The translations under genes and the position numbers were made by a program. Positions 23,300 to 53,785 of a stretch of DNA of 64,000 bases are shown here, one piece after another (the stretch's first letter is position 1; each line of letters opens with the position of its first letter). This stretch comes from Zeus faber (Eukaryota > Chordata > Actinopteri > Zeiformes > Zeidae): the NCBI GenBank assembly GCA_960531495.1, contig OY482864.1, forward strand, positions 8,973,644 through 9,037,643. Direction: 5' to 3'. The notes under the pieces were generated by a model, which was not told the DNA's origin, searched no databases, and saw only the letters and a program-made list of their open reading frames with translations.

Positions 23300-23404
23300 G
23301 TTGCAGCTGTGGTGTGTTGGCTCTCCAAAGGCAAAAAAAGCTCCCTTCCACACGACACTTGACTCCCCAGGCAGGTTTCAACAGTGATTTCTGAAGGTGT
23401 AATA

Positions 23405-23442
23405 CACCTTCATGATCACTGTCTCCCCTCCCGGGTAAGTAT
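23405..23442 (-). other. U1 snRNA-like 5' head of LINE copy 3
   Basis: Same sequence and CG leader as in copy 2; the fold-back partner lies at 23385-23404. Confidence 0.8.
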
Positions 23443-25322: not shown

Positions 25323-25751
25323 GGGGACAACCCGCTGGTTTGCAGACCATGGCTTTAAACATTCACTTTAAAATTAAAAGAAATTCACACTCTGTATTGT
25401 TCACTCGTATTCCTGTATCCGAATTACTGCGTGGAGGTGTGGGTAACATGTACAAAAAAAGAGCCATGCAGGACTGACTAACAGTTTTACGCTTTTACTG
25501 CGAGCGAGGCAGATATCTTAGTGTTAAGCACTCTGTGATTTACTTATACAATGTTGTTGGGCTTCACCAGTTGGAAAAGCCTACCAAAAATTGGCGAAAC
25601 TCTTAGTTGTCCCTCTCCACGGAAGTCTTTAGTAAAAGGCGGTTTATGTGGTTTTTATTCACAACATAATCAAAACATACAATCAATCAAGGCATAGAAG
25701 GACAACTGTCCAACAAATCTTTGCGGGTAACAATTCACACAATCCCAAACA

Positions 25752-28700
25752 CTACACCAAGCCCAAACCCCCTTTCCACCTCTCTAGGGCCGCGTGCTGT
25801 CCCCATCTCCCCATGTCTGCCCTGATCCTCCCTCTCACCTCCCCCTCCACCCTCCTTATGACCCCCTCCACCCCACAGTCCCTCCCGAGCCTGATGAGGT
25901 CCTGCCTGGCCACCCACAATACCTTCTTGAAGAGGCTTATGAGCAGCCAGAGCAGGAAACCTTCCCTCCTGTTCCCCCCTCTACCCACCCCCCTCTCCAC
26001 ACTGGTCCAGGTCAGGTTGAACCCTCTCCTCACCCTCCTTAGTAGCGCCCCCGCCCTCGCCCACACCACCCCTGCGAAAGGGCAGTCCCACATGACATGA
26101 GCGATGGTTTCCTCCTCCGAGCACGCGACTCGGGGGCACCCAGGGGATGTCGCCAAGTCCCGCCGGTACAAGGTGGTATGTACCGGCAGTGCTTTCTGGA
26201 GGCATGACCAGTTCAGGTCCTTGAGCCCATTATCCAGGCCGGGAGGCTGGACCGCCAGCCAGACTGCCGCCGGAATCCCTACGGCAGCCGGTGCGGTCAC
26301 CCCCCGCCTCGTCTCGGCGTAGAGCCTCCTCTGGTCCAGCCCCAAACCCCCCTCCCAAGCCTGGGGGTGAGCCCGAAGCCACTTCGCCGCATGGCCATAA
26401 TGCCATGGCATCTGCTCTGACCGGGGCCCCAAGTTGCCCAAAGGCCCCATCACCCTCCTCGCCTGGTAGGAGAAATACAGCCGGAGGAAGTGTCCCGATG
26501 GGTGGACCACCGGAGAGGACAGCTCCCTCAACAAAAAGGATACAAAATAACCGTCCAGCTTTAGTGGGAGGTGAGGCACGCCCCTTCCGCCCTCCCCGAT
26601 CGGCGCGTACATCCGGGCCCTCGCCGCATACTCGCACCGGCCTCCCCACACGAATCCGAACACGAGCCGCGTGAGGGGCGCCCGCATGCTTGCCGGCATC
26701 GGGAAGACGTATGACAAGTACAGTAGGGACGGCAACACGTCTGCCTTCAAAACCAGCACCTTGCCCGTAAGGGTCAGTGTCCTGGATTTCCAGAGGGCGA
26801 CTTTCCTCTGGACAGCTTCTATTCGCCCGGTCCAATTTACCGTGGCGCTGTGGGCTGCCTCAAAATCCACCCCGAGTAATCTCAGGGGTCCTACGCAGAG
26901 CGGCAGCCCCCCTGGTGCGTCCGTCCTTCCCTTCCACCGCCCAAAGAACTTGACCGAGGTCTTCGCCAGATTTAGCTCGGCGCCAGACACTCGGCCAAAC
27001 TCCTGGAAGATCTCCAAGGAGCGGAGCAGGCAGGCATCGCTGTCCAGCAGCAGGGTGGTGTCATCCGCATACTGGGACAGCTTTACCCTAAGGCCGCCGC
27101 TGCCTGGCACCAGCAGTCCCCTCACACCCGGGTCAGCCCGAATGGCCGCCGCCAGGGGCTCCATGTAAAGGATGTAGAGCAGGGGTGAAAGCGGACACCC
27201 CTGTCTTACCCCTGCGTGCAACCCAAAAGGTTCCCCTAGGTGCCCGTTAACACAAACCGTGCTCCCCACGGCCACGTACAACGTACGCAGCCACCCAACG
27301 AACAGCTTCCCTAAACCTACTCTCTCTAAGACTCTAAACATAAAGCCCCAGTGAACCCTATCGAAAGCTTTGGCCTGATCGAGGCCTACCACCATTAGGG
27401 GTAGCCCTCTATCTTCCACCCAAGCGATAGCGTCTCTGATGAGCTGGAGGTTCCACCTCACAGAGCGCCCAGCCACTCCACACGTCTGGTCCACATGGAC
27501 CGCATCCGGGAGGACTGTGCGCAGACGGTCAGCGAGGACCTTAGCTAGAAGCTTGTAGTCCACACACAGCATGGTCAATTGCCGCCAGTTATTAAGGTCA
27601 GAGGCATCGCCCTTCTTGAAAAGAAGGGAGATCACCCCCCTAGCCATCGACCCTCCAAGAGCCCCCGCGCGGAGGACCTCGGTCAGCACCTCTAACACCA
27701 CTGGACCGAGCGCACCCCAAAACTTGAGGTAGAACTCGGCCGGCAGGCCGTCGATGCCCGGGACCTTTCGCTTTCCCATCCTTCGAAGGGCACCCTCAAG
27801 CTCCTCCAGAGTGAGGGGAGTCTCCAAAGCTTCTGCCAGGTCAGGCGGCACCCGCCGGGCAACCCTCTCTAAGAAGGCTTCTTCCCGGGTCTCATCCACC
27901 ACCCTTTCACAGAAGAAGGAGCGATAGTGGTCCGTGGCGACCCTCACCATTGCATCCGCTTCTGTCACCACCTGTCCCTGACTGTCCCTGACCCCCGTGA
28001 ACACCTGCCGCGCCTTCTCGGTCCTAACCGAGCCGAAGAAAGCCGCCGAGCACGTCTCATTGCTCTCTGCGAACTCCCGACGCGACCGCAGCAGGTACGC
28101 ACGGGCCCTACTCTCATAGACTCCCCTAAGCTGCGCTTTAAGGGTGTCACAAGCCCGCTGGTCTACAGTGCCACCGAGGTTCCCCACGGCATACTCGAGC
28201 TCGAGGAGGCGTTGCAGGCGGAGCACCTCCCTCTTCGCCTGCTTCGCCTTCCTTTTGCTGTACCTGATGGCGTGGGCTTTAATCCTCTCCTTTGCCACTT
28301 CCCACCACTCTACCACTCCGGCACATAGAGGCCTGAGCCCCTCGAGACCCCGGAAAACCCCGGCGAAGCTGGCATCGAACTCGTCCTCCTCGAGGATACT
28401 CGGATTTAACTTCCAGTACCCCAGACCGAAGACCGGGGCACAGGACCGGACCCGGAGGAGGACCCCATCGTGGTCCGAGAAAAAGACGGGGAGCACCCGC
28501 CCAGACAGCACGCCCAAGGACCTTGAAAGAAAGACATAGTCCAGCCTCCTCGCACTCCCCTGGGTGTTTCGCCATGTGGGACCATCCAGTCGCGGGGTGA
28601 CCACCCTCCCCCCGTCCACCAGCCCGTGCCCCGCCATGAAACCCTTGACAAAAACCCTGCTCGTGTCCCTCCCTATATCTAAGTTAAAATCCCCCCCAAT

Positions 28701-29115
28701 GATCACCTGTCTGTTGGTGGCCAGGTGTGGTCCCAGACCGGCCACCGTCTCCCTCCTCTCCCTCGTTCCCTGCGGCCCATAAAAAACAAAGACCCTCAAA
28801 CAAAGACCCCTGTATGTGATGTCCGCTCCCAGCACCCTCCCCTGCTCCACAACATACACCCCCTCTACCCTCACCCCCCTGTCCCCGAAAAGAATACCCA
28901 CCCCTGAACTGTGAACCCCCCCCCACACTCCAGACTGACCCTCCCTTGTCCCACTCCCTCGCAAAAATTCCCACGTCCCTTTCATCCCTCAAATGAACCT
29001 CTTGCAGAAAACAAATTGTGCACCCCAAACCCCCAACAAAATCAAAGACTGCCCCCCTCTTAACTGAGTTCCTCATCCCCCGTGCATTGATTGTGACGAC
29101 CCCCAGACAATTCAT
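25752..29115 (-). pseudogene. LINE ORF2, copy 4, +1 frameshift in a C run
   Basis: One nucleotide longer than the intact ORF2. The C run at 28916-28924 has nine C where intact copies have eight, shifting the frame after residue ~65 of the endonuclease. All later motifs (YGP, GGDFN, SDH, YADD, CCHC) are intact in the second frame. Private missense changes include A614 to V (TLYAAV to TLYVAV). Confidence 0.88.
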
Positions 29116-29219
29116 TTAACACAGGTGATGAAAACCAAAATCGTGCCCTGAAAATCCTCCGACCCAAAAAACGCAAAAAAGAACGATACCCCCATCTAAA
29201 CACGGCAGCGACCCCACCA

Positions 29220-30737
29220 TCAGTCATACAGCCCCAACACCATGTCCTCCGGGCTCTCCTCCATAAGTTGACCCCAGGAATAGGGCATGTTGTTGGGGGA
29301 GGCAGGGGGACCCCATGACCCCCCCTGCCCGTCGTCCTCAAAAAGGGCGGGGCTTTCCTCCAGAGGGGGGGGCTTCCCACCGACCTCCGCTGCCACTCCC
29401 TCCCTTTGGCCCGCCCTGTCCACGACACCCCCTGCCACTTCCCTCATCTTCTTGGGGGCCTCCTTGCCCAACTGGTGGTGGTCCCTCCTCTTCCTCTGGG
29501 TCGCGGCCTGGGGGCCTGGCCGGGCGGAATCTGCTGGCGGTGATACCTCGGGAGGGACCTGCGCAGGGGGAGGGAACGCCGCAGGAAGCCCTTCCACAGG
29601 TGGAGCCGCCTTCGGCTTGGCCACCACAGGGAGAGCCTCCCCAGGATCCGCCACAGGATGTGCGGCTGCCACAGGGGGAGCCGCCCCGGGGGCCGTGGCT
29701 GCGGCCGGAGCAGGAGGAGATCCCGCGGGAGAAGCCTTTCCGGGGACCACCGCAGGAGCAGCCGATGTCTTTTTCCCCGTCGCCGGAGGTGCCGCCGCAC
29801 TTGGCGCCGAGACCGCCGCTCCTGGCACAGCCAGCGCCAAATCCGGAGGCCCCTGGGGCCGGCACACCGGGACGGGGGCCACCGGCACCGGCACCGAAAC
29901 CGTAGGCGGGTCAGCCGCGACTACCGCCGCGGAAGGAGGGGGCGCTGACTCCGCAGCCGGTCGATCCGGCTCCCCCTTGGGGCCGCCTATGACCCTCAGA
30001 GCGGCCACGTAGGCCCTGCTGCACCCCTTGGCGAGGTGCTCAGGCGACCCGCAGATATGGCAGGCCCTTGGCATCGGACACTCCCTTGCCTCATGCCCAA
30101 GGGCCTGACAGAACCTGCACCTCTGCTGGCCACAATCTCCCTCCGCGTGGCCGCTAGCCCTGCACCTACGGCAGAAAGCCGGCTGCCTCGAATAAAACAG
30201 GTAGCCCCGATCCGCCCCGATGTTGAAAAACGCCGGGGGGTGGGCCAAACCCCCCACCCCCGCCGCGTCCTGCCCCAGGAGGACCTGATACTGGCGCTTA
30301 CCTGTCCAGATGCCGTTGCTGTCCCTCAGGCGCCTCGGGGACGTCAGCACCTCCGCGTACCTCCCCAGGAAGGCCGCCACAGCCTGGTCCGACACGTACG
30401 GATTGTACATGTGGACCGTCACCACCCGAAAGTTCGGTCTGTCGAGGCTTTGCAGGTTGAAGAGGGAGACTGGCCTTGCTCCCGCTTGCCGCCGGCTCTC
30501 CTCCAGGGCCCTGTCACACACCTCCTGTCCCAGGAAGGTGACATCGAAGCTCCTCTCTGCGTTGTTGGTCTGCAGGCAGAGTAGGTCCTCCACCTTCAGC
30601 TTCAGGGCCCCAAGCAGGACAGCCCTCCCAAACAGCTCCCTGGTCATCATGGGCTCCTTCTCCTCCTTCCACTGGTACCGCAGCGTAGCCCTCAGCCCCG
30701 CCCTCGGGACCGACTGTGAGGTTCCAGCCTGCGCCAT
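29220..30737 (-). CDS. LINE ORF1, copy 4
   Basis: 505 codons, intact, from the ATG with strong context (A at -3, G at +4). The three CCHC knuckles are present, with E201 to D inside the first. Its ORF2 partner is frameshifted. Confidence 0.87.
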   Translation of the reverse strand: MAQAGTSQSVPRAGLRATLRYQWKEEKEPMMTRELFGRAVLLGALKLKVEDLLCLQTNNAERSFDVTFLGQEVCDRALEESRRQAGARPVSLFNLQSLDRPNFRVVTVHMYNPYVSDQAVAAFLGRYAEVLTSPRRLRDSNGIWTGKRQYQVLLGQDAAGVGGLAHPPAFFNIGADRGYLFYSRQPAFCRRCRASGHAEGDCGQQRCRFCQALGHEARECPMPRACHICGSPEHLAKGCSRAYVAALRVIGGPKGEPDRPAAESAPPPSAAVVAADPPTVSVPVPVAPVPVCRPQGPPDLALAVPGAAVSAPSAAAPPATGKKTSAAPAVVPGKASPAGSPPAPAAATAPGAAPPVAAAHPVADPGEALPVVAKPKAAPPVEGLPAAFPPPAQVPPEVSPPADSARPGPQAATQRKRRDHHQLGKEAPKKMREVAGGVVDRAGQREGVAAEVGGKPPPLEESPALFEDDGQGGSWGPPASPNNMPYSWGQLMEESPEDMVLGLYD

Positions 30738-30842
30738 GTTGCAGCTGTGGTGTGTTGGCTCTCCAAAGGCAAAAAAAGCTCCCTTCCACACGACACTTGA
30801 CTCCCCAGGCAGGTTTCAACAGTGATTTCTGAAGGTGTAATA

Positions 30843-30880
30843 CACCTTCATGATCACTGTCTCCCCTCCCGGGTAAGTAT
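30843..30880 (-). other. U1 snRNA-like 5' head of LINE copy 4
   Basis: Sequence as in copy 2, with the fold-back partner at 30823-30842. Confidence 0.8.
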
Positions 30881-31219
30881 CGTTAGTAAAAGGCGAAAGG
30901 CTTATTCGGGCTGAAGAGAAACCAGAGTAATTAATAAGATTGATGCAAATGATGGAAATGGGTGTTGGTGCCGTCGCCTATCAGAATGACGGTCCTGCTT
31001 TTTGGCTAGGTGCAGAGCGACTGAAAGGTCTTACATTGACTAGCAGTCCACGCCACCCTTTAACCATCGATTCCAAATCAGAACAATGAATGGGTGTCAC
31101 TTATTATGTACAGACAGACTGAGGGAAAGTTTTCTCTGGGATTAAAACAGCAGCACTACTGTGACAGCCTGCTCCGCATTTGCCTGAAAAGTGGATGGAT
31201 CATCAACATACTATTCCAC

Positions 31220-34583: not shown

Positions 34584-35384
34584 TACGCCGGGTGAAGATT
34601 CACAGAGCAAAGTTAAAAAATATCTTTTGTCACAAGGAAAACGTATCTGCAGACAGATGGTTACGGTAAGCCTAATTTAGCTGGACAAATGAAATGGGCC
34701 CATGTATGTCCTAGGCCAGGGATGGGCTAATATTTTGGTTCAAGGGCCGGTTACAGTTTTGAAGACCATGTGAGAGGCCACATTCAAGTTTATTCAAGTT
34801 TCCTTTCGGCTTTTTGGCTCATCAAATGAGGAAGAAGCTTCAAAATGGGACTTGACTGTAGGACATGTTTTGAGCAGAAACTGGCACACAGAATTAAAAT
34901 CGCTTTAGAGATACGACAACCGTACAAAATGTAGGTGGAACGATTTAACTGGCTTGGGGACAACCCGCTGGTTTGCAGACCATGGCTTTAAACATTCACT
35001 TTAAAATGAAAGGAAATTCACACTCTGTATTGTTCACTCGTATTCCTGTATCCGAATTACTGCGTGGAGGTGTGGGTAACATGTACAAAAAAAGAGCCAT
35101 GCAGGACTGACTAACAGTTTTACGCTTTTACTGCGAGCGAGGCAGATATCTTAGTGTTAAGCACTCTGTGATTTACTTATACAATGTTGTTGGGCTTCAC
35201 CAGTTGGAAAAGCCTACCAAAAATTGGCGAAACTCTTAGTTGTCCCTCTCCACGGAAGTCTTTAGTAAAAGGCGGTTTATGTGGTTTTTATTCACAACAT
35301 AATCAAAACATACAATCAATCAAGGCATAGAAGGACAACTGTCCAACAAATCTTTGCGGGTAACAATTCACACAATCCCAAACA

Positions 35385-38300
35385 CTACACCAAGCCCAAA
35401 CCCCCTTTCCACCTCTCTAGGGCCGCGTGCTGTCCCCATCTCCCCACGTCTGCCCTGATCCTCCCTCTCACCTCCCCCTCCACCCTCCTTATGACCCCCT
35501 CCACCCCACAGTCCCTCCCGAGCCTGATGAGGTCCTGCCTGGCCACCCACAATCCCTTCTTGAAGAGGCTTATGAGCAGCCAGAGCAGGAAACCTTCCCT
35601 CCTGTTCCCCCCTCTACCCACCCCCCTCTCCACACTGGTCCAGGTCAGGTTGAACCCTCTCCTCACCCTCCTTAGTAGCGCCCCCGCCCTCGCCCACACC
35701 ACCCCTGCGAAAGGGCAGTCCCACATGACATGAGCGATGGTTTCCTCCTCCGAGCACGCGACTCGGGGGCACCCAGGGGATGTCGCCAAGTCCCGCCGGT
35801 ACAAGGTGGTACGTACCGGCAGTGCTTTCTGGAGGCATGACCAGTTCAGGTCCTTGAGCCCATTATCCAGGCCGGGAGGCTGGACCGCCAGCCAGACTGC
35901 CGCCGGAATCCCTACGGCAGCCGGTGCGGTCACCCCCCGCCTCGTCTCGGCGTAGAGCCTCCTCTGGTCCAGCCCCAAACCCCCCTCCCAAGCCTGGGGG
36001 TGAGCCCGAAGCCACTTCGCCGCATGGCCATAGTGCCATGGCATCTGCTCTGACCGGGGCCCCAAGTTGCCCAAAGGCCCCATCACCCTCCTCGCCTGGT
36101 AGGAGAAATACAGCCGGAGGAAGTGTCCCGATGGGTGGACCACCGGAGAGGACAGCTCCCTCAACAAAAAGGATACAAAATAACCGTCCAGCTTTAGTGG
36201 GAGGTGAGGCACGCCCCTTCCGCCCTCCCCGATCGGCGCGTACATCCGGGCCCTCGCCGCATACTCGCACCGGCCTCCCCACACGAATCCGAACACGAGC
36301 CGCGTGAGGGGCGCCCGCATGCTTGCCGGCATCGGGAAGACGTATGACAAGTACAGTAGGGACGGCAACACGTCTGCCTTCAAAACCAGCACCTTGCCCG
36401 TAAGGGTCAGTGTCCTGGATTTCCAGAGGGCGACTTTCCTCTGGACAGCTTCTATTCGCCCGGTCCAATTTACCGTGGCGCTGTGGGCTGCCTCAAAATC
36501 CACCCCGAGTAATCTCAGGGGTCCTACGCAGAGCGGCAGCCCCCCTGGTGCGTCCGTCCTTCCCTTCCACCGCCCAAAGAACTTGACCGAGGTCTTCGCC
36601 AGATTTAGCTCGGCGCCAGACACTCGGCCAAACTCCTGGAAGATCTCCAAGGAGCGGAGCAGGCAGGCATCGCTGTCCAGCAGCAGGGTGGTGTCATCCG
36701 CATACTGGGACAGCTTTACCCTAAGGCCGCCGCTGCCTGGCACCAGCAGTCCCCTCACACCCGGGTCAGCCTGAATGGCCGCCGCCAGGGGCTCCATGTA
36801 AAGGATGTAGAGCAGGGGTGAAAGCGGACACCCCTGTCTTACCCCTGCGTGCAACCCAAAAGGTTCCCCTAGGTGCCCGTTAACACAAACCGTGCTCCCC
36901 ACGGCCGCGTACAACGTACGCAGCCACCCAACGAACAGCTTCCCTAAACCTACTCTCTCTAAGACTCTAAACATAAAGCCCCAGTGAACCCTATCGAAAG
37001 CTTTGGCCTGATCGAGGCCTACCACCATTAGGGGTAGCCCTCTATCTTCCACCCAAGCGATAGCGTCTCTGATGAGCTGGAGGTTCCACCTCACAGAGCG
37101 CCCAGCCACTCCACACGTCTGGTCCACATGGACCGCATCCGGGAGGACTGTGCGCAGACGGTCAGCGAGGACCTTAGCTAGAAGCTTATAGTCCACACAC
37201 AGCATGGTCAATGGCCGCCAGTTATTTAGGTCAGAGGCATCGCCCTTCTTGAAAAGAAGGGAGATCACCCCCCTAGCCATCGACCCTCCAAGAGCCCCCG
37301 CGCGGAGGACCTCGGTCAGCACCTCTAACACCACTGGACCGAGCGCACCCCAAAACTTGAGGTAGAACTCGGCCGGCAGGCCGTCGATGCCCGGGACCTT
37401 TCGCTTTCCCATCCTTCGAAGGGCACCCTCAAGCTCCTCCAGAGTGAGGGGGGTCTCCAAAGCTTCTGCCAGGTCAGGCGGCACCCGCCGGGCAACCCTC
37501 TCTAAGAAGGCTTCTTCCCGGGTCTCATCCACCACCCTTTCACAGAAGAAGGAGCGATAGTGGTCCGTGGCGACCCTCACCATTGCATCCGCTTCTGTCA
37601 CCACCTGTCCCTGACTGTCCCTGACCCCCGTGAACACCTGCCGCGCATTCTCGGTCCTAACCGAGCCGAAGAAAGCCGCCGAGCACGTCTCATTGCTCTC
37701 TGCGAACTCCCGACGCGACCGCAGCAGGTACGCACGGGCCCTACTCTCATAGACTCCCCTAAGCTGCGCTTTAAGGGTGTCACAAGCCCGCTGGTCTACA
37801 GTGCCACCGAGGTTCCCCACGGCATACTCGAGCTCGAGGAGGCGTTGCAGGCGGAGCACCTCCCTCTTCGCCTGCTTCGCCTTCCTTTTGCTGTACCTGA
37901 TGGCGTGGGCTTTAATCCTCTCCTTTGCCACTTCCCACCACTCTACCACTCCGGCACATAGAGGCCTGAGCCCCTCGAGACCCCGGAAAACCCCGGCGAA
38001 GCTGGCATCGAACTCGTCCTCCTCGAGGATACTCGGATTTAACTTCCAGTACCCCAGACCGAAGACCGGGGCACAGGACCGGACCCGGAGGAGGACCCCA
38101 TCGTGGTCCGAGAAAAAGACGGGGAGCACCCGCCCAGACAGCACGCCCAAGGACCTTGAAAGAAAGACATAGTCCAGCCTCCTCGCACTCCCCTGGGTGT
38201 TTCGCCATGTGGGACCATCCAGTCGCGGGGTGACCACCCTCCCCCCGTCCACCAGCCCGTGCCCCGCCATGAAACCCTTGACAAAAACCCCGCTCGTGTC

Positions 38301-38747
38301 CCTCCCTATATCTAAGTTAAAATCCCCCCCAATGATCACCTGTCTGTTGGTGGCCAGGTGTGGTCCCAGACCGGCCACCGTCTCCCTCCTCTCCCTCGTT
38401 CCCTGCGGCCCATAAAAAACAAAGACCCTCAAACAAAGACCCCTGTATGTGATGTCCGCTCCCAGCACCCTCCCCTGCTCCACAACATACACCCCCTCTA
38501 CCCTCACCCCCCTGTCCCCGAAAAGAATACCCACCCCTGAACTGTGAACCCCCCCCACACTCCAGACTGACCCCCCCTTGTCCCACTCCCTCGCAAAAAT
38601 TCCCACGTCCCTCTCATCCCTCAAATGAACCTCTTGCAGAAAACAAATTGTGCACCCCAAACCCCCAACAAAATCAAAGACTGCCCTCCTCTTAACTGAG
38701 TTCCTCATCCCCCGTGCATTGATTGTGACGACCCCCAGACAATTCAT
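35385..38747 (-). CDS. LINE ORF2 endonuclease-reverse transcriptase, copy 5 (intact)
   Basis: 1,120 aa from a true ATG (MNCLG). Residues 1-~220 form an AP-endonuclease-like domain: N10 in TINARG, E39 in LQEVHL, Y112 in YGP, D142/N144 in GGDFN, RRLDY at 189-193, and S213-D214-H215. GYWKLN (232-237) links to the reverse transcriptase: KVPGIDGLPAEFY (450-462), FKKGD (499-503), NNWRPL, the first catalytic Asp D579 in GLDQAKAFD, RQGCPLSP (637-644), and YADD with D684/D685. A C-x4-C-x7-H-x4-C motif (C993, C998, H1006, C1011) lies near the end, as in L1-type proteins. The role is to nick the tRNA-array target and prime reverse transcription of element RNA there. The endonuclease presumably sets the site specificity. 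Private K367 to N and R659 to Q changes lie outside these motifs. Confidence 0.93.
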   Translation of the reverse strand: MNCLGVVTINARGMRNSVKRRAVFDFVGGLGCTICFLQEVHLRDERDVGIFAREWDKGGSVWSVGGVHSSGVGILFGDRGVRVEGVYVVEQGRVLGADITYRGLCLRVFVFYGPQGTRERRETVAGLGPHLATNRQVIIGGDFNLDIGRDTSGVFVKGFMAGHGLVDGGRVVTPRLDGPTWRNTQGSARRLDYVFLSRSLGVLSGRVLPVFFSDHDGVLLRVRSCAPVFGLGYWKLNPSILEEDEFDASFAGVFRGLEGLRPLCAGVVEWWEVAKERIKAHAIRYSKRKAKQAKREVLRLQRLLELEYAVGNLGGTVDQRACDTLKAQLRGVYESRARAYLLRSRREFAESNETCSAAFFGSVRTENARQVFTGVRDSQGQVVTEADAMVRVATDHYRSFFCERVVDETREEAFLERVARRVPPDLAEALETPLTLEELEGALRRMGKRKVPGIDGLPAEFYLKFWGALGPVVLEVLTEVLRAGALGGSMARGVISLLFKKGDASDLNNWRPLTMLCVDYKLLAKVLADRLRTVLPDAVHVDQTCGVAGRSVRWNLQLIRDAIAWVEDRGLPLMVVGLDQAKAFDRVHWGFMFRVLERVGLGKLFVGWLRTLYAAVGSTVCVNGHLGEPFGLHAGVRQGCPLSPLLYILYMEPLAAAIQADPGVRGLLVPGSGGLRVKLSQYADDTTLLLDSDACLLRSLEIFQEFGRVSGAELNLAKTSVKFFGRWKGRTDAPGGLPLCVGPLRLLGVDFEAAHSATVNWTGRIEAVQRKVALWKSRTLTLTGKVLVLKADVLPSLLYLSYVFPMPASMRAPLTRLVFGFVWGGRCEYAARARMYAPIGEGGRGVPHLPLKLDGYFVSFLLRELSSPVVHPSGHFLRLYFSYQARRVMGPLGNLGPRSEQMPWHYGHAAKWLRAHPQAWEGGLGLDQRRLYAETRRGVTAPAAVGIPAAVWLAVQPPGLDNGLKDLNWSCLQKALPVRTTLYRRDLATSPGCPRVACSEEETIAHVMWDCPFAGVVWARAGALLRRVRRGFNLTWTSVERGVGRGGNRREGFLLWLLISLFKKGLWVARQDLIRLGRDCGVEGVIRRVEGEVRGRIRADVGRWGQHAALERWKGGLGLV

Positions 38748-38851
38748 TTAACACAGGTGATGAAAACCAAAATCGTGCCCTGAAAATCCTCCGACCCAAA
38801 AAACGCAAAAAAGAACGATACCCCCTTCTAAACACGGCAGCGACCCCACCA

Positions 38852-40369
38852 TCAGTCATACAGCCCCAACACCATGTCCTCCGGGCTCTCCTCCATAAGT
38901 TGACCCCAGGAATAGGGCATGTTGTTGGGGGAGGCAGGGGGACCCCATGACCCCCCCTGCCCGTCGTCCTCAAAAAGGGCGGGGCTTTCCTCCAGAGGGG
39001 GGGGCTTCCCACCGACCTCCGCTGCCACTCCCTCCCTTTGGCCCGCCCTGTCCACGACACCCCCTGCCACTTCCCTCATCTTCTTGGGGGCCTCCTTGCC
39101 CAACTGGTGGTGGTCCCTCCTCTTCCTCTGGGTCGCGGCCTGGGGGCCTGGCCCGGCGGAATCTGCTGGCGGTGCTACCTCGGGAGGGACCTGCGCAGGG
39201 GGAGGGAACGCCGCAGGAAGCCCTTCCACAGGTGGAGCCGCCTTCGGCTTGGCCACCACAGGGAGAGCCTCCCCAGGATCCGCCACAGGATGTGCGGCTG
39301 CCACAGGGGGAGCCGCCCCGGGGGCCGTGGCTGCGGCCGGAGCAGGAGGAGATCCCGCGGGAGAAGCCTTTCCGGGGACCACCGCAGGAGGAGCCGATGT
39401 CTTTTTCCCCGTCGCCGGAGGTGCCGCCGCACTTGGCGCCGAGACCGCCGCTCCTGGCACAGCCAGCGCCAAATCCGGAGGCCCCTGGGGCCGGCACACC
39501 GGGACGGGGGCCACCGGCACCGGCACCGAAACCGTAGGCGGGTCAGCCGCGACTACCGCCGCGGAAGGAGGGGGCGCTGACTCCGCAGCCGGTCGATCCG
39601 GCTCCCCCTTGGGGCCGCCTATGACCCTCAGAGCGGCAGCGTAGGCCCTGCTGCACCCCTTGGCGAGGTGCTCAGGCGACCCGCAGATATGGCAGGCCCT
39701 TGGCATCGGACACTCCCTTGCCTCATGCCCAAGGGCCTGACAGAACCTGCACCTCTGCTGGCCACATTCTCCCTCCGCGTGGCCGCTAGCCCTGCACCTA
39801 CGGCAGAAAGCCGGCTGCCTCGAATAAAACAGGTAGCCCCGATCCGCCCCGATGTTGAAAAACGCCGGGGGGTGGGCCAAACCCCCCACCCCCGCCGCGT
39901 CCTGCCCCAGGAGGACCTGATACTGGCGCTTACCTGTCCAGATGCCGTTGCTGTCCCTCAGGCGCCTCGGGGACGTCAGCACCTCCGCGTACCTCCCCAG
40001 GAAGGCCGCCACAGCCTGGTCCGACACGTACGGATTGTACATGTGGACCGTCACCACCCGAAAGTTCGGTCTGTCGAGGCTTTGCAGGTTGAAGAGGGAG
40101 ACTGGCCTTGCTCCCGCTTGCCGCCGGCTCTCCTCCAGGGCCCTGTCACACACCTCCTGTCCCAGGAAGGTGACATCGAAGCTCCTCTCTGCGTTGTTGG
40201 TCTGCAGGCAGAGTAGGTCCTCCACCTTCAGCTTCAGGGCCCCAAGCAGGACAGCCCTCCCAAACAGCTCCCTGGTCATCATGGGCTCCTTCTCCTCCTT
40301 CCATTGGTACCGCAGCGTAGCCCTCAGCCCCGCCCTCGGGACCGACTGTGAGGTTCCAGCCTGCGCCAT
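38852..40369 (-). CDS. LINE ORF1 RNA-binding protein, copy 5 (intact)
   Basis: 505 aa starting at MAQAG; the frame is open further upstream but contains no earlier ATG. Residues ~60-155 look RRM-like (FDVTFLG, RVVTVHMYNP, GIWTGKRQYQVLL). Three CCHC zinc knuckles follow: C189-C192-H197-C202, C207-C210-H215-C220 and C226-C229-H234-C239. Next come a Pro/Ala-rich region (~255-420), a basic patch (QRKRRDHH, KKMR) and an acidic tail ending GLYD. By analogy with Tx1-group ORF1 proteins it should coat element RNA and act as a chaperone in the ribonucleoprotein. It ends 104 nt before the ORF2 ATG. Confidence 0.9.
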   Translation of the reverse strand: MAQAGTSQSVPRAGLRATLRYQWKEEKEPMMTRELFGRAVLLGALKLKVEDLLCLQTNNAERSFDVTFLGQEVCDRALEESRRQAGARPVSLFNLQSLDRPNFRVVTVHMYNPYVSDQAVAAFLGRYAEVLTSPRRLRDSNGIWTGKRQYQVLLGQDAAGVGGLAHPPAFFNIGADRGYLFYSRQPAFCRRCRASGHAEGECGQQRCRFCQALGHEARECPMPRACHICGSPEHLAKGCSRAYAAALRVIGGPKGEPDRPAAESAPPPSAAVVAADPPTVSVPVPVAPVPVCRPQGPPDLALAVPGAAVSAPSAAAPPATGKKTSAPPAVVPGKASPAGSPPAPAAATAPGAAPPVAAAHPVADPGEALPVVAKPKAAPPVEGLPAAFPPPAQVPPEVAPPADSAGPGPQAATQRKRRDHHQLGKEAPKKMREVAGGVVDRAGQREGVAAEVGGKPPPLEESPALFEDDGQGGSWGPPASPNNMPYSWGQLMEESPEDMVLGLYD

Positions 40370-40474
40370 GTTGCAGCTGTGGTGTGTTGGCTCTCCAAAG
40401 GCAAAAAAAACTCCCTTCCACACGACACTTGACTCCCCAGGCAGGTTTCAACAGTGATTTCTGAAGGTGTAATA

Positions 40475-40512
40475 CACCTTCATGATCACTGTCTCCCCTC
40501 CCGGGTAAGTAT
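40475..40512 (-). other. U1 snRNA-like 5' head of LINE copy 5
   Basis: In sense order, U1 nt 1-9 (ATACTTACC), 14-21 (AGGGGAGA) and 27-40 (TGATCATGAAGGTG) are matched exactly. U10 is C, C13 is G, and U1 nt 22-26 are replaced by CAG. The stretch that pairs with 5' splice sites and the U1-70K loop sequence are thus kept. After the head, TACACCTTCA (40465-40474) is the exact complement of TGAAGGTGTA, with outer CAGTGAT/ATCACTG also pairing, so the RNA would form a ~40-nt hairpin in place of U1 stem-loop I. An 11-codon upstream ORF starts at the ATG within GATCATGAAGG. U1 sequence is from memory. Confidence 0.82.
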
Positions 40513-40860
40513 CGTTAGTAAAAGGCGAAAGGCTTATTCGGGCTGAAGAGAAACCAGAGTAATTAATAAGATTGATGCAAATGATGGAAATGGGTGTTGG
40601 TGCTGTCGCCTATCAGAATGACGGTCCTGCTTTTTGGCTAGGTGCAGAGCGACTGAAAGGTCTTACATTGACTAGCAGTCCACGCCACCCTTTAACCATC
40701 GATTCCAAATCAGAACAATGAATGGGTGTCACTTATTATGTACAGACAGACTGAGGGAAAGTTTTCCCTGGGATTAAAACAGCAGCACTACTGTGACAGC
40801 CTGCTCCGCATTTCCCTGAAAACCCTGAGACGTGGATGGATCATCAACATACTATTCCAG

Positions 40861-40932: not shown

Positions 40933-41956
40933 TACGCCGGGAGAATATTCACAGAGCAAAGTTAAAAAATATCTTTTGTCACAAGGAAAACGTATCTGCA
41001 GACAGATGGTTACGGTAAGCCTAATTTAGCTGGACAAATGAAATGGGCCCATGTATGTCCTAGGCCAGGGATGGGCTAATATTTTTGTTCAAGGGCCGGT
41101 TACAGTTTTGAAGACCATGTGAGAGGCCACATTCAAGTTTATTCAAGTTTCCTTTCGGCTTTTTGGCTCATCAAATGAGGAAGAAGCTTCAAAATGGGAC
41201 TTGACTGTAGGACATGTTTTGAGCAGAAACTGGCACACAGAATTAAAATCGCTTTAGAGATACGACAACCGTACAAAATGTAGGTGGAACGATTTAACTG
41301 GCTTGGGGACAACCCGCTGGTTTGCAGACCATGGCTTTAAACATTCACTTTAAAATTAAAGGAAATTCACACTCTGTATTGTTCACTCGTATTCCTGTAT
41401 CCGATTACTGCGTGGAGGTGTGGGGTAACATGTACAAAAAAAGAGCCATGCAGGACTGACTAACAGTTTTACGCTTTTACTGCGAGCGAGGCAGATATCT
41501 TAGTGTTAAGCACTCTGTGATTTACTTATACAATGTTGTTGGGCTTCGCCAGTTGGAAAAGCCTACCAAAAATAGGCGAAACTCTTAGTTGTCCCTCTCC
41601 ACGGAAGTCTTTAGTAAAAGGCGAAAGACTTATTCGGGCTGAAGAGAAACCAGAGTAATTAATAAGATTGATGCAAATGATGGAAATGGGTGTTGGTGCC
41701 GTCGCCTATCAGAATGACGGTCCTGCTTTTTGGCTAGGTGCAGAGCGACTGAAAGGTCTTACATTCACTAGCAGTCCACGCCACCCTTTAACCATCGATT
41801 CCAAATCAGAACAATGAATGGGTGTCACTTATTATGTACAGACAGACTGAGGGAAAGTTTTCTCTGGGATTAAAACAGCAGCACTACTGTGACAGCCTGC
41901 TCCGCATTTCCCTGAAAACCCTGAGACGTGGATGGATCATCAACATACTATTCCAG

Positions 41957-47508: not shown

Positions 47509-48308
47509 TACGCCGGGTGAATATTCACAGAGCAAAGTTAAAAAATATCTTTTGTCACAAGGAAAACGTATCTGCAGACAGATGGTTACGATAAGCCTTA
47601 TTTAGCTGGACAAATGAAATGGGCCCATGTATGTCCTAGGCCAGGGAGGGGCGAATATTTTGGTTCAAGGGCCGGTTACAGTTTTGAAGACCATGTGAGA
47701 GGCCACATTCAAGTTTATTCAAGTTTCCTTTCGGCTTTTTGGCTCATCAAATGAGGAAGAAGCTTCAAAATGGGACTTGACTGTAGGACATGTTTTGAGC
47801 AGAAACTGGCACACAGAATTAAAATCGCTTTAGAGATACGACAACCGTACAAAATGTAGGTGGAACGATTTAACTGGCTTGGGGACAACCCGCTGGTTTT
47901 TCAGACCATGGCTTTAATCATTCACGTTAAAATGAAAGGAAATTCACTCTGTATTGTTCACTCGTATTCCTGTATCCGAATTACTGCGTGGAGGTGTGGG
48001 GTAACATGTACAAAAAAAGAGCCATGCAGGACTGACTAACAGTTTTACGCTTTTACTGCAACGAGGCAGATATCTTAGTGTTAAGCACTCTGTGATTTAC
48101 TTATACAATGTTGTTGGGCTTCACCAGTTGGAAAAGCCTACCAAAAATTGGCGAAACTCTTAGTTGTCCCTCTCCACGGAAGTCTTTAGTAAAAGGCGGT
48201 TTATGTGGTTTTTATTCACAACATAATCAAAACATACAATCAATCAAGGCATAGAAGGACAACTGTCCAACAAATCTTTGCGGGTAACAATTCACACAAT
48301 CCCAAACA

Positions 48309-51300
48309 CTACACCAAGCCCAAACCCCCTTTCCACCTCTCTAGGGCCGCGTGCTGCCCCCATCTCCCCATGTCTGCCCTGATCCTCCCTCTCACCTCCC
48401 CCTCCACCCTCCTTATGACCCCCTCCACCCCACAGTCCCTCCCGAGCCTGATGAGGTCCTGCCTGGCCACCCACAATCCCTTCTTGAAGAGGCTTATGAG
48501 CAGCCAGAGCAGGAAACCTTCCCTCCTGTTCCCCCCTCTACCCACCCCCCTCTCCACACTGGTCCAGGTCAGGTTGAACCCTCTCCTCACCCTCCTTAGT
48601 AGCGCCCCCGCCCTCGCCCACACCACCCCTGCGAAAGGGCAGTCCCACATGACATGAGCGATGGTTTCCTCCTCCGAGCACGCGACTCGGGGGCACCCAG
48701 GGGATGTCGCCAAGTCCCGCCGGTACAAGGTGGTACGTACCGGCAGTGCTTTCTGGAGGCATGACCAGTTCAGGTCCTTGAGCCCATTATCCAGGCCGGG
48801 AGGCTGGACCGCCAGCCAGACTGCCGCCGGAATCCCTACGGCAGCCGGTGCGGTCACCCCCCGCCTCGTCTCGGCGTAGAGCCTCCTCTGGTCCAGCCCC
48901 AAACCCCCCTCCCAAGCCTGGGGGTGAGCCCGAAGCCACTTCGCCGCATGGCCATAGTGCCATGGCATCTGCTCTGACCGGGGCCCCAAGTTGCCCAAAG
49001 GCCCCATCACCCTCCTCGCCTGGTAGGAGAAATACAGCCGGAGGAAGTGTCCCGATGGGTGGACCACCGGAGAGGACAGCTCCCTCAACAAAAAGGATAC
49101 AAAATAACCGTCCAGCTTTAGTGGGAGGTGAGGCACGCCCCTTCCGCCCTCCCCGATCGGCGCGTACATCCGGGCCCTCGCCGCATACTCGCACCGGCCT
49201 CCCCACACGAATCCGAACACGAGCCGCGTGAGGGGCGCCCGCATGCTTGCCGGCATCGGGAAGACGTATGACAAGTACAGTAGGGACGGCAACACGTCTG
49301 CCTTCAAAACCAGCACCTTGCCCGTAAGGGTCAGTGTCCTGGATTTCCAGAGGGCGACTTTCCTCTGGACAGCTTCTATTCGCCCGGTCCAATTTACCGT
49401 GGCGCTGTGGGCTGCCTCAAAATCCACCCCGAGTAATCTCAGGGGTCCTACGCAGAGCGGCAGCCCCCCTGGTGCGTCCGTCCTTCCCTTCCACCGCCCA
49501 AAGAACTTGACCGAGGTCTTCGCCAGATTTAGCTCGGCGCCAGACACTCGGCCAAACTCCTGGAAGATCTCCAAGGAGCGGAGCAGGCAGGCATCGCTGT
49601 CCAGCAGCAGGGTGGTGTCATCCGCATACTGGGACAGCTTTACCCTAAGGCCGCCGCTGCCTGGCACCAGCAGTCCCCTCACACCCGGGTCAGCCCGAAT
49701 GGCCGCCGCCAGGGGCTCCATGTAAAGGATGTAGAGCAGGGGTGAAAGCGGACACCCCTGTCTTACCCCTGCGTGCAACCCAAAAGGTTCCCCTAGGTGC
49801 CCGTTAACACAAACCGTGCTCCCCACGGCCGCGTACAACGTACGCAGCCACCCAACGAACAGCTTCCCTAAACCTACTCTCTCTAAGACTCTAAACATAA
49901 AGCCCCAGTGAACCCTATCGAAAGCTTTGGCCTGATCGAGGCCTACCACCATTAGGGGTAGCCCTCTATCTTCCACCCAAGCGATAGCGTCTCTGATGAG
50001 CTGGAGGTTCCACCTCACAGAGCGCCCAGCCACTCCACACGTCTGGTCCACATGGACCGCATCCGGGAGGACTGTGCGCAGACGGTCAGCGAGGACCTTA
50101 GCTAGAAGCTTGTAGTCCACACACAGCATGGTCAATGGCCGCCAGTTATTAAGGTCAGAGGCATCGCCCTTCTTGAAAAGAAGGGAGATCACCCCCCTAG
50201 CCATCGACCCTCCAAGAGCCCCCGCGCGGAGGACCTCGGTCAGCACCTCTAACACCACTGGACCGAGCGCACCCCAAAACTTGAGGTAGAACTCGGCCGG
50301 CAGGCCGTCGATGCCCGGGACCTTTCGCTTTCCCATCCTTCGAAGGGCACCCTCAAGCTCCTCCAGAGTGAGGGGGGTCTCCAAAGCTTCTGCCAGGTCA
50401 GGCGGCACCCGCCGGGCAACCCTCTCTAAGAAGGCTTCTTCCCGGGTCTCATCCACCACCCTTTCACAGAAGAAGGAGCGATAGTGGTCCGTGGCGACCC
50501 TCACCATTGCATCCGCTTCTGTCACCACCTGTCCCTGACTGTCCCTGACCCCCGTGAACACCTGCCGCGCCTTCTCGGTCCTAACCGAGCCGAAGAAAGC
50601 CGCCGAGCACGTCTCATTGCTCTCTGCGAACTCCCGACGCGACCGCAGCAGGTACGCACGGGCCCTACTCTCATAGACTCCCCTAAGCTGCGCTTTAAGG
50701 GTGTCACAAGCCCGCTGGTCTACAGTGCCACCGAGGTTCCCCACGGCATACTCGAGCTCGAGGAGGCGTTGCAGGCGGAGCACCTCCCTCTTCGCCTGCT
50801 TCGCCTTCCTTTTGCTGTACCTGATGGCGTGGGCTTTAATCCTCTCCTTTGCCACTTCCCACCACTCTACCACTCCGGCACATAGAGGCCTGAGCCCCTC
50901 GAGACCCCGGAAAACCCCGGCGAAGCTGGCATCGAACTCGTCCTCCTCGAGGATACTCGGATTTAACTTCCAGTACCCCAGACCGAAGACCGGGGCACAG
51001 GACCGGACCCGGAGAAGGACCCCATCGTGGTCCGAGAAAAAGACGGGGAGCACCCGCCCAGACAGCACGCCCAAGGACCTTGAAAGAAAGACATAGTCCA
51101 GCCTCCTCGCACTCCCCTGGGTGTTTCGCCATGTGGGACCATCCAGTCGCGGGGTGACCACCCTCCCCCCGTCCACCAGCCCGTGCCCCGCCATGAAACC
51201 CTTGACAAAAACCCCGCTCGTGTCCCTCCCTATATCTAAGTTAAAATCCCCCCCAATGATCACCTGTCTGTTGGTGGCCAGGTGTGGTCCCAGACCGGCC

Positions 51301-51671
51301 ACCGTCTCCCTCCTCTCCCTCGTTCCCTGCGGCCCATAAAAAACAAAGACCCTCAAACAAAGACCCCTGTATGTGATGTCCGCTCCCAGCACCCTCCCCT
51401 GCTCCACAACATACACCCCCTCTACCCTCACCCCCCTGTCCCCGAAAAGAATACCCACCCCTGAACTGTGAACCCCCCCCACACTCCAGACTGACCCCCC
51501 CTTGTCCCACTCCCTCGCAAAAATTCCCACGTCCCTCTCATCCCTCAAATGAACCTCTTGCAGCAAACAAATTGTGCACCCCAAACCCCCAACAAAATCA
51601 AAGACTGCCCTCCTCTTAACTGAGTTCCTCATCCCCCGTGCATTGATTGTGACGACCCCCAGACAATTCAT
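48309..51671 (-). CDS. LINE ORF2, copy 6 (intact)
   Basis: 1,120 codons. All endonuclease and reverse transcriptase catalytic residues are as in copy 5, with NARG intact. The private change F36 to L lies three residues before metal-binding E39 (CLLQE in place of CFLQE). Together with its open ORF1 this is one of the best candidates for an active element. Confidence 0.92.
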   Translation of the reverse strand: MNCLGVVTINARGMRNSVKRRAVFDFVGGLGCTICLLQEVHLRDERDVGIFAREWDKGGSVWSVGGVHSSGVGILFGDRGVRVEGVYVVEQGRVLGADITYRGLCLRVFVFYGPQGTRERRETVAGLGPHLATNRQVIIGGDFNLDIGRDTSGVFVKGFMAGHGLVDGGRVVTPRLDGPTWRNTQGSARRLDYVFLSRSLGVLSGRVLPVFFSDHDGVLLRVRSCAPVFGLGYWKLNPSILEEDEFDASFAGVFRGLEGLRPLCAGVVEWWEVAKERIKAHAIRYSKRKAKQAKREVLRLQRLLELEYAVGNLGGTVDQRACDTLKAQLRGVYESRARAYLLRSRREFAESNETCSAAFFGSVRTEKARQVFTGVRDSQGQVVTEADAMVRVATDHYRSFFCERVVDETREEAFLERVARRVPPDLAEALETPLTLEELEGALRRMGKRKVPGIDGLPAEFYLKFWGALGPVVLEVLTEVLRAGALGGSMARGVISLLFKKGDASDLNNWRPLTMLCVDYKLLAKVLADRLRTVLPDAVHVDQTCGVAGRSVRWNLQLIRDAIAWVEDRGLPLMVVGLDQAKAFDRVHWGFMFRVLERVGLGKLFVGWLRTLYAAVGSTVCVNGHLGEPFGLHAGVRQGCPLSPLLYILYMEPLAAAIRADPGVRGLLVPGSGGLRVKLSQYADDTTLLLDSDACLLRSLEIFQEFGRVSGAELNLAKTSVKFFGRWKGRTDAPGGLPLCVGPLRLLGVDFEAAHSATVNWTGRIEAVQRKVALWKSRTLTLTGKVLVLKADVLPSLLYLSYVFPMPASMRAPLTRLVFGFVWGGRCEYAARARMYAPIGEGGRGVPHLPLKLDGYFVSFLLRELSSPVVHPSGHFLRLYFSYQARRVMGPLGNLGPRSEQMPWHYGHAAKWLRAHPQAWEGGLGLDQRRLYAETRRGVTAPAAVGIPAAVWLAVQPPGLDNGLKDLNWSCLQKALPVRTTLYRRDLATSPGCPRVACSEEETIAHVMWDCPFAGVVWARAGALLRRVRRGFNLTWTSVERGVGRGGNRREGFLLWLLISLFKKGLWVARQDLIRLGRDCGVEGVIRRVEGEVRGRIRADMGRWGQHAALERWKGGLGLV

Positions 51672-51775
51672 TTAACACAGGTGATGAAAACCAAAATCGT
51701 GCCCTGAAAATCCTCCGACCCAAAAAACGCAAAAAAGAACGATACCCCCATCTAAACACGGCAGCGACCCCACCA

Positions 51776-53293
51776 TCAGTCATACAGCCCCAACACCATG
51801 TCCTCCGGGCTCTCCTCCATAAGTTGACCCCAGGAATAGGGCATGTTGTTGGGGGAGGCAGGGGGACCCCATGACCCCCCCTGCCCGTCGTCCTCAAAAA
51901 GGGCGGGGCTTTCCTCCAGAGGGGGAGGCTTCCCACCGACCTCCGCTGCCACTCCCTCGCTTTGGCCCGCCCTGTCCACGACACCCCCTGCCACTTCCCT
52001 CATCTTCTTGGGGGCCTCCTTGCCCAACTGGTGGTGGTCCCTCCTCTTCCTCTGGGTCGCGGCCTGGGGGCCTGGCCCGGCGGAATCTGCTGGCGGTGAT
52101 ACCTCGGGAGGGACCTGCGCAGGGGGAGGGAACGCCGCAGGAAGCCCTTCCACAGGTGGAGCCGCCTTCGGCTTGGCCACCACAGGGAGAGCCTCCCCAG
52201 GATCCGCCACAGGATGTGCGGCTGCCACAGGGGGAGCCGCCCCGGGGGCCGTGGCTGCGGCCGGAGCAGGAGGAGATCCCGCGGGAGAAGCCTTTCCGGG
52301 GACCACCGCAGGAGGAGCCGATGTCTTTTTCCCCGTCGCCGGAGGTGCCGCCGCACTTGGCGCCGAGACCGCCGCTCCTGGCACAGCCAGCGCCAAATCC
52401 GGAGGCCCCTGGGGCCGGCACACCGGGACGGGGGCCACCGGCACCGGCACCGAAACCGTAGGCGGGTCAGCCGCGACTGCCGCCGCGGAAGGAGGGGGCG
52501 CTGACTCCGCAGCCGGTCGATCCGGCTCCCCCTTGGGGCCGCCTATGACCCTCAGAGCGGCCACGTAGGCCCTGCTGCACCCCTTGGCGAGGTGCTCAGG
52601 CGACCCGCAGATATGGCAGGCCCTTGGCATCGGACACTCCCTTGCCTCATGCCCAAGGGCCTGACAGAACCTGCACCTCTGCTGGCCACATTCTCCCTCC
52701 GCGTGGCCGCTAGCCCTGCACCTACGGCAGAAAGCCGGCTGCCTCGAATAAAACAGGTAGCCCCGATCCGCCCCGATGTTGAAAAACGCCGGGGGGTGGG
52801 CCAAACCCCCCACCCCCGCCGCGTCCTGCCCCAGGAGGACCTGATACTGGCGCTTACCTGTCCAGATGCCGTTGCTGTCCCTCAGGCGCCTCGGAGACGT
52901 CAGCACCTCCGCGTACCTCCCCAGGAAGGCCGCCACAGCCTGGTCCGACACGTACGGATTGTACATGTGGACCGTCACCACCCGAAAGTTCGGTCTGTCG
53001 AGGCTTTGCAGGTTGAAGAGGGAGACTGGCCTTGCTCCCGCTTGCCGCTGGCTCTCCTCCAGGGCCCTGTCACACACCTCCTGTCCCAGGAAGGTGACAT
53101 CGAAGCTCCTCTCTGCGTTGTTGGTCTGCAGGCAGAGTAGGTCCTCCACCTTCAGCTTCAGGGCCCCAAGCAGGACAGCCCTCCCAAACAGCTCCCTGGT
53201 CATCATGGGCTCCTTCTCCTCCTTCCACTGGTACCGCAGCGTAGCCCTCAGCCCCGCCCTCGGGACCGACTGTGAGGTTCCAGCCTGCGCCAT
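51776..53293 (-). CDS. LINE ORF1, copy 6 (intact)
   Basis: 505 codons, all three CCHC knuckles intact. Small private changes include R82 to Q and V272 to A, and R to S near the basic patch (GQSEGVA). Confidence 0.9.
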   Translation of the reverse strand: MAQAGTSQSVPRAGLRATLRYQWKEEKEPMMTRELFGRAVLLGALKLKVEDLLCLQTNNAERSFDVTFLGQEVCDRALEESQRQAGARPVSLFNLQSLDRPNFRVVTVHMYNPYVSDQAVAAFLGRYAEVLTSPRRLRDSNGIWTGKRQYQVLLGQDAAGVGGLAHPPAFFNIGADRGYLFYSRQPAFCRRCRASGHAEGECGQQRCRFCQALGHEARECPMPRACHICGSPEHLAKGCSRAYVAALRVIGGPKGEPDRPAAESAPPPSAAAVAADPPTVSVPVPVAPVPVCRPQGPPDLALAVPGAAVSAPSAAAPPATGKKTSAPPAVVPGKASPAGSPPAPAAATAPGAAPPVAAAHPVADPGEALPVVAKPKAAPPVEGLPAAFPPPAQVPPEVSPPADSAGPGPQAATQRKRRDHHQLGKEAPKKMREVAGGVVDRAGQSEGVAAEVGGKPPPLEESPALFEDDGQGGSWGPPASPNNMPYSWGQLMEESPEDMVLGLYD

Positions 53294-53398
53294 GTTGCAG
53301 CTGTGGTGTGTTGGCTCTCCAAATGCAAAAAAAGCTCCCTTCCACACGACACTTGACTCCCCAGGCAGGTTTCAACAGTGATTTCTGAAGGTGTAATA

Positions 53399-53436
53399 CA
53401 CCTTCATGATCACTGTCTCCCCTCCCGGGTAAGTAT
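53399..53436 (-). other. U1 snRNA-like 5' head of LINE copy 6
   Basis: Identical to the copy 5 head, with the complete fold-back partner at 53379-53398. Confidence 0.8.
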
Positions 53437-53785
53437 CGTTAGTAAAAGGCGAAAGGCTTATTCGGGCTGAAGAGAAACCAGAGCAATTAATAAGATTGAT
53501 GCAAATGATGGAAATGGGTGTTGGTGCCGTCGCCTATCAGAATGACGGTCCTGCTTTTTGGCTAGGTGCAGAGCGACTGAAAGGTCTTACATTGACTAGC
53601 AGTCCACGCCACCTTTTAACCATCGATTCCAAATCAGAACAATGAATGGGTGTCACTTATTATGTACAGACAGACTGAGGGAAAGTTTTTTCCTGGGATT
53701 AAAACAGCAGCAATACTGTGACAGCCTGCTCCGCATTTTCCTGAAAACCCTGAGACGTGGATGAATAATCAACATACTATCCCAC

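Follow-up and report, generated by a model that had tools for sequence, protein, structure and literature searches.

Results

The window analysed here, a stretch of 64,000 nt (C20:8973644-9037643) of the 803-Mb genome of Zeus faber, holds a tandem array in which the minus strand of each unit of about 1,096 bp carries one U5 snRNA gene together with one tRNA-Asp(GTC) gene. It contains 21 uninterrupted U5 genes, exemplified by the target gene that an Rfam scan placed at 41542..41658 (minus strand), and seven U5 genes that are split by copies of one and the same LINE, all in the same orientation. All seven copies lie between ...GCCTTTTACTAA and GCCTTTTACTAAAGACTTCC within loop 1 of U5, and GCCTTTTACTAA was found on both flanks of every copy. 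One copy of 5241 bp spans 35274..40514 (minus strand); upstream of it lies the U5 5′ half ending in ...GCCTTTTACTAA (40515..40560, minus strand), and downstream of it the 3′ copy of the target, GCCTTTTACTAA, at 35262..35273 (minus strand), followed by the U5 3′ half. The other copies, also on the minus strand, are located at 320..2101 (head at 2062-2099), 10883..16121 (head at 16082-16119), 18327..23444 (L035; head at 23405-23442), 25641..30882 (head at 30843-30880), 48198..53438 (head at 53399-53436), and 54548..59860 (head at 59821-59858). Six of the seven are near full length (5118-5313 bp) and differ from each other by 0.33-0.69%, and the copy at 320..2101 is internally deleted (1782 bp).

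ORF1 of the LINE (505 aa; 38852..40369, minus strand) contains ZCCHC3-type RNA-binding domains (RBD_ZCCHC3, 4.6e-29 and 3.4e-17) and a zinc-knuckle match just below the cut-off (zf-CCHC, 19.9 bits against 20.8), and ORF2 (1120 aa; 35385..38747, minus strand) contains an APE-type endonuclease (Exo_endo_phos, 1.1e-12), a reverse transcriptase (RVT_1, 1.7e-31), and a zf-RVT domain (3.4e-7). A search of the genome with ORF2 returned at least 42 matches (the best 41 of 8995 candidates were scored). Among the matches listed, 20 on C20 cover residues 1-1120, and 19 of these 20 are without a stop, suggesting that the family is young. A 241-aa open frame antisense to ORF1 (window 38919-39644, plus strand) was also noted, which is probably a composition effect of the proline/alanine-rich ORF1.

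A sequence-only reading of this DNA had claimed that each of the seven LINE copies starts with a U1 snRNA-like head and that the match begins at U1 nt 1. The results confirmed that every copy opens with CG followed by a 38-nt head; the seven heads are identical to each other over 38 nt, and the plus strand of the window contains no head. Alignment to the host's own U1 gene (L002/L006, from the same genome) also bore out the starting point of the match. The head at 40475..40512 (minus strand) corresponds to U1 nt 1-40 with a 2-nt deletion, with 35 identities, 3 mismatches, and one 2-nt gap. Its score of 54 is beyond chance, the maxima reached by dinucleotide shuffles of U1 being 25 (n = 300) and 27 (n = 2000). 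The Rfam U1 model gave 8.2 and 11.5 bits on the window copy and 32.7 bits on a copy of the subfamily D described below (cut-off 69.5); the scores are low because the likeness is limited to the U1 5′ end, and U1 sequence beyond nt ~46-53 was not found in the element.

Three subfamilies with this head were distinguished in the genome. Subfamily A, to which the window copies belong, comprises 33 copies by junction pattern, all within the U5 array at C20:8.43-9.08 Mb. B-type junctions number 15 and lie on other contigs; the four that were read (L091-L094) are in U5-like genes and have an in-frame TAG early in ORF1. The two D copies, L100 and L101 (C20:9.12 Mb), reside beside the array in strongly diverged U5-like genes whose loop 1 is altered to TCCTTTTCC[A/G]. 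In ungapped comparison with U1 nt 1-46, the B heads showed 42/46 identities in three copies and 41/46 in the fourth, and the head of L100 equals host U1 nt 1-46 at 46/46 positions. L101 has the U1 start, then a deletion shortly after nt 40. The head scores of A, B, and D were 54, 72, and 95, with maxima of 27, 27, and 32 in 2000 shuffles. Because B and D match U1 better than the window copies do, we conclude that the head is U1 by descent, and the window copies appear to carry the most altered version among those seen. In L100, nt 46 is followed by ACTT and then by CCAGGGC, which equals U1 nt 47-53, implying that the captured piece may be slightly longer than 46 nt. Compared with A, the D copy with the perfect head is alike in ORF1 (3-5/157 differences) and differs in the 5′ UTR (15-19/97); an A-like ORF1 combined with a divergent 5′ UTR and a perfect head could be explained if subfamilies had recombined, if U1 had been captured a second time, or if selection in D had preserved identity to U1.

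Comparison of the junctions showed that the place of the CG leader (40513..40514, minus strand) is taken in U5 itself by AG. Of the 33 A junctions, 32 have CG and one has AG, and the four B copies read also have AG. Since AG represents the next letters of U5 (ACTAAAG), the best reading of CG is that a letter of the target has changed. The occurrence of AG in B, in one A copy, and in U5 further suggested that in the ancestral joint U5 ...ACTAAAG was followed directly by U1 nt 1.

Among the ORF2 matches listed, the nearest relative is a family on C1 with 84% identity (82% in one partial match), and the sequence comparison of the U5 element within the Keno/Tx1 group covered this family. The family (L095-L097, C1:1.77-2.24 Mb) is inserted in U2 snRNA genes, as read from three 5′ junctions and one 3′ junction, and its 15 listed ORF2 matches contain no stop. 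Its 3′ target is TCTGTTCTTATCAGTTTAAT, the sequence given as the 3′ target of Keno in the accessible part of PMC6136364. Its 5′ end is not U1-like, and its 5′ UTR shares with that of A only an 8-nt local match, located in the hairpin tail described below; the ORF1 ATG is at nt 146 of the 5′ end in the U5 element and at nt 69 in the U2-inserted family. The U2-inserted family has two head variants with one segment in common, which is complementary to a portion of the 5′ half of U2. Thus, the U1 head seems to belong to the U5-inserting lineage as far as the families seen here show. The better match of other copies to U1 and the lack of the head in the U2-inserted family together indicate that the head was gained by capture, as the sequence-only reading had proposed for a U1 5′ end.

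The upstream flanks were read for 30 of the 33 A copies. Three of them, L035, L040, and L041, carry a foreign U5 5′ half, TCTTGTTTCTCTTCAGATCG[T/C]ATAAATC. In L035, the window copy at 18327..23444, this half occupies 23445..23490 (minus strand) and is of the type of a second U5 cluster at C20:15.67 Mb. Immediately before the U5 start, all three have sequence of the array type, as does the 3′ flank of L035; the swapped stretch begins inside ACTCT at the start of U5 and continues as far as the LINE. Allowing up to 2 mismatches, the foreign half was found 11 times in the genome, 8 times in the second cluster (C20:15.67-15.72 Mb) and 3 times in the array; the half of L041 is one letter off the type of the second cluster, and its exact form was not found elsewhere in the genome. 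The second cluster itself holds A-like LINE copies, L102 and L103 (C20:15.69 and 15.70 Mb), which have no U1 head; a SINE-like sequence that ends in AAATGTAAATGT takes the place of their 5′ end. Private point variants were seen in a few other LINE-bearing units of the array. As three of 30 insertions carry a foreign U5 half, the element RNA probably starts at the U5 start, with the U1 piece internal. The simplest reading is that this RNA would carry the U5 5′ half and could write it into a new site.

Folding predicted a long hairpin from the leader to AAGTGTCG (40423..40514, minus strand), in which the U1 head forms the 5′ arm. For A, the 92 nt made up of leader, U1 piece, and ~50 following nt reached a predicted -47.3 kcal/mol; 87 nt of it gave -43.3 kcal/mol (z -6.7, 0/200 shuffles), and the B fold gave -29.7 (z -2.9, 1/200 shuffles). 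When the U5 half was added, the A fold was still remarkable (0/200), and the B fold was unremarkable (14/200). Placing the host U1 head on A's tail gave -39.1 against -47.3 for A's own head, and nearly all of this loss of ~8 kcal/mol came from the 2-nt deletion and the adjoining letter, while U1's letter at nt 13 folds as well as or better than A's. In the fold, the leader's CG is matched by the CG that closes AAGTGTCG, and restoring the ancestral A made the fold 1 kcal/mol weaker. On balance, A's departures from U1 appear to strengthen the predicted fold. A's tail pairs better with its own head than with host U1 or with B's head, and B's tail likewise prefers its own head; the array-type U5 half is a further partner of B's tail, at a level exceeding shuffles (2/500). 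Pairing of the tail with host U1 was reached by 0/500 shuffles in A and was weak in B (37/500).

The A structure was scored on nine distinct rows, which represent only three clades. In these rows, 91.6% of the cells are paired (1/500 shuffles), 7 cells show a double change (0/500), and the covariation score was reached by 0/500 shuffles; the numbers of pairs with a double change (3; 89/500) and of further pair types (405/500) did not exceed shuffles. The head is invariant in 29 A copies, compared with 6 variable sites in the next 45 nt. This invariance is weak evidence, because 14% of 38-nt stretches are invariant too, in a count that includes a noisy region. No head-tail complementarity was detected in copy D (225/400 shuffles); as D has the perfect U1 head, the hairpin may postdate the capture.

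Discussion

SINEs with snRNA-derived 5′ heads were reportedly described by Kojima in 2015. Such SINEs are short and non-coding, and the U5 element was ruled out as one of them by its length of 5.2 kb and by its ORF1 (505 aa) and ORF2 (1120 aa). With its APE endonuclease and reverse transcriptase, ORF1 RNA-binding domains, and strict multicopy RNA-gene target, the element shows the traits of Keno/Tx1 LINEs. Keno, of the Tx1 type, likewise combines APE endonuclease and reverse transcriptase with a site in tandem snRNA genes, but its target is U2, which in this genome is occupied by the separate set on C1, whereas the U5 element targets U5 loop 1 and has a U1-derived head. As of 2015, the snRNA-targeted LINEs reported were Keno and Utopia, both in U2 (PMC4640811, accessible part). 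Like the U5 element, Utopia is a LINE of snRNA genes, yet it is of the RLE type with a restriction-like endonuclease, and the accessible part of the same source mentions no U1 head for it. LINE-1 chimeras with U1-U6 resemble the U5 element in having snRNA at the LINE 5′ end, and according to the accessible part of PMC13174262 the LINE-1/U6 chimeras usually do not propagate further. In contrast, the head described here recurs at 33 A junctions, at 15 B-type junctions, of which four were read, and in D, B and D being the older copies; a one-off, non-propagating snRNA/LINE chimera was thereby ruled out. R2 of the 28S genes is co-transcribed with 28S (PMC12192640, accessible part). R2 RNA self-cleaves, unlike anything found for the U5 element, and an Rfam scan of the window found no self-cleaving ribozyme family at the gathering cut-off. 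Dada elements target U1, U6, and tRNA genes (PMC3706591; for U1 and U6 also PMC8869645; accessible parts of both) and thus share with the U5 element a small-RNA-gene target; they carry short repeats matching the target gene (PMC3706591, accessible part), and unlike the U5 element they are DNA transposons with a transposase.

Our literature search, which covered only a minority of subscription papers, returned neither a LINE targeted to U5 nor one in which a U1 head is fixed. The element described here, which propagates itself in U5 genes and has fixed such a head, adds a target to the snRNA-targeted LINEs. It also preserves, through the foreign U5 halves, natural traces of a possible mode of transcription of such elements and, in itself, of a possible change of target, and the expression of LINEs inside snRNA genes becomes a simple question of mapping 5′ ends.

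The best reading of the head is that the 5′ half of U1 would have been captured as RNA, by 5′ transduction or by a template jump, and may then have been kept as a structure. We propose that the first ~46 nt of U1 were captured at the LINE 5′ end before A and B split. Read through from the U5 promoter, the LINE would yield an RNA composed of the U5 5′ half, the U1 piece, and the LINE, and the snRNA halves borne by this RNA could be copied into new insertions. In A and B, a terminal hairpin would retain the U1 piece as its 5′ arm, and identity to U1 would no longer be held. This combination, namely a Keno-related LINE of U5 genes that captured a U1 piece, is read through from U5, copies snRNA halves, and keeps a hairpin in A and B, is the account that we regard as reasonably probable. 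The U1 half would most simply have entered when a LINE was read through from a U1 gene and inserted into U5, i.e., by 5′ transduction. Such a route would draw only on the behaviour suggested by the foreign halves, and the head of the U2 family, which pairs moderately with the U2 half, would be a fitting parallel.

The alternative entry, a template jump, has a substantial but lesser chance of being right. Here the reverse transcriptase, copying LINE RNA at the U5 nick, would have jumped to U1 snRNA and reached its 5′ end, and the head would have been an inherited passenger ever since. A match whose first letter is U1 nt 1 and which sits right at the U5 junction (1-2 nt of overlap) agrees with this, as do the LINE-1 chimeras with U1-U6 that are reported in the accessible part of PMC13174262. 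It is also in line with the searches of host U1 genes, in which no U1-gene-inserted relative was found. Among genome copies with nt 21-40 intact (exact matches), none is interrupted after nt 40; the lone candidate for a U1 gene interrupted after nt 46 was rejected, as it turned out to be LINE copy D inside a U5-like gene; and the 30 U1 genes fetched from the array on C7 all continue through U1. A U1-targeted ancestor is thus unseen. On the other side, the captured piece stops within U1 (at nt 46, perhaps 53), unlike the U6 of U6/LINE-1 chimeras, which is typically full length (PMC13174262, accessible part). That the head is a mere passenger is further opposed by the tails of A and B, for which their own heads are better pairing partners than host U1, and weakly by the invariance of the head next to a variable stretch.

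Rather more tentatively, the 5′ transduction route can be extended to a general one. LINEs might move among snRNA genes, be expressed by read-through, and each time carry along the half of the previous gene. On this view, the head would date back, as a fossil, to a stage in U1 genes that lay between the U2- and U5-inserting relatives, and U1 snRNA might have refreshed it in some lineages (D); the relatives would share the requirement for a hairpin that closes near nt 1-3 of the snRNA. If so, the hairpin of the U2 family would consist of the U2 half and the head, and that of A and B of the U1 piece and the tail. The U2 half and the head of the U2 family appear to pair only moderately: joint folding was reached by 5/500, 4/400, and 5/400 shuffles and the duplex by 21/500, and other combinations scored alike (A's U1 head, 3/500; U5 half, 16/400). 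Copy D, whose tail showed no pairing with U1, counts against a U1-complementary tail as the ancestral state.

The read-through from U5 assumed in our preferred account leans on the foreign U5 halves, which could also have arisen by gene conversion between U5 genes in DNA and would then have no bearing on the transcript. Short conversion tracts do occur, and the numbers are small: the foreign half was found in 3/30 LINE-bearing and 0/39 LINE-free units read (p = 0.08), and L040 and L041, whose upstream flanks differ at 9/1405 positions, L040 being rearranged inside the LINE, may represent one event. We nevertheless consider gene conversion unlikely. All three array matches of the foreign half lie at LINE junctions, and the genome pattern search (up to 2 mismatches) found none in LINE-free array units, although these are several times commoner (237 pattern matches on the array's strand, with all of the 100 listed on C20). 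Moreover, the swap stretches from within ACTCT at the U5 start right up to the LINE, and L035 and L041 share the LINE type but not the flank, being mutual nearest by LINE sequence (3/1479) and not by upstream flank (26/1395). When units with cluster-type letters in the half (4 copies) or a broken linkage between promoter and half (2 further copies) were counted together, the difference was 6/30 LINE-bearing versus 0/39 LINE-free (one-sided Fisher 0.005), by a criterion chosen after the data had been seen.

With the RNA probably starting at U5, it is improbable that the head works as U1, be it as a source of cap or promoter or as a binding site for U1-70K or another U1 protein. In its favor, D keeps U1 nt 1-46 unchanged despite its divergent 5′ UTR, and GATCATGAAG, the U1-70K loop motif, is kept in all 30 A copies read. 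However, L101 is broken by a deletion, as apparently is L100, and we found no evidence of promoter or U1-mimic action by the head. The sequence-only reading was right in that the head is U1-derived, starts at nt 1, and was captured; the roles it suggested are mostly unsupported. U1 promoter elements lie upstream of nt 1, and the foreign halves upstream of the head point to a start at U5 +1, which speaks against a source of promoter or cap. The suggested recruitment of U1-70K fares little better, since 8 of the 10 loop letters, though kept, are paired in the predicted fold of A, about half are paired in B, and most are paired in D. As for the suppression of premature polyadenylation (telescripting), the element RNA would bear U1 sense sequence and not a U1-complementary site. 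Selection for a 5′ hairpin, judged from the predicted folds, would fit better than a head used as U1.

It is very improbable that the head stands in for the 3′ strand of U5 stem I that was lost and thereby lets the U5 half and the U1 piece together fold like U5: the Rfam U5 model gave 22.5 bits (A) and 28.7 bits (B copy L092), both below the cut-off of 40, and one half with host U1 1-25 reached 2/300, but most combinations of half and head were no better than shuffles and the longer A 1-82 gained nearly nil (297/300), so that shuffle tests largely refuted this function. A chance or convergent likeness to U1, which the shortness of the head (38 nt) alone would favor, can be dismissed, as the head scores exceed the maxima of 2000 shuffles and the D head is identical to U1 at 46/46 positions.

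Other features of the U1 sequences were also noted. The U1 array of the host (C7:28.98-29.35 Mb) has units of ~2,980 bp with some longer intervals (8.2 and ~9.5 kb), and in two of its members, L083 and L087, the match to the unit ends ~1.3 kb upstream of U1. Read in antisense (window 40504-40512, plus strand), each LINE head gives GGTAAGTAT, which in antisense transcripts would be a strong 5′ splice-site sequence.
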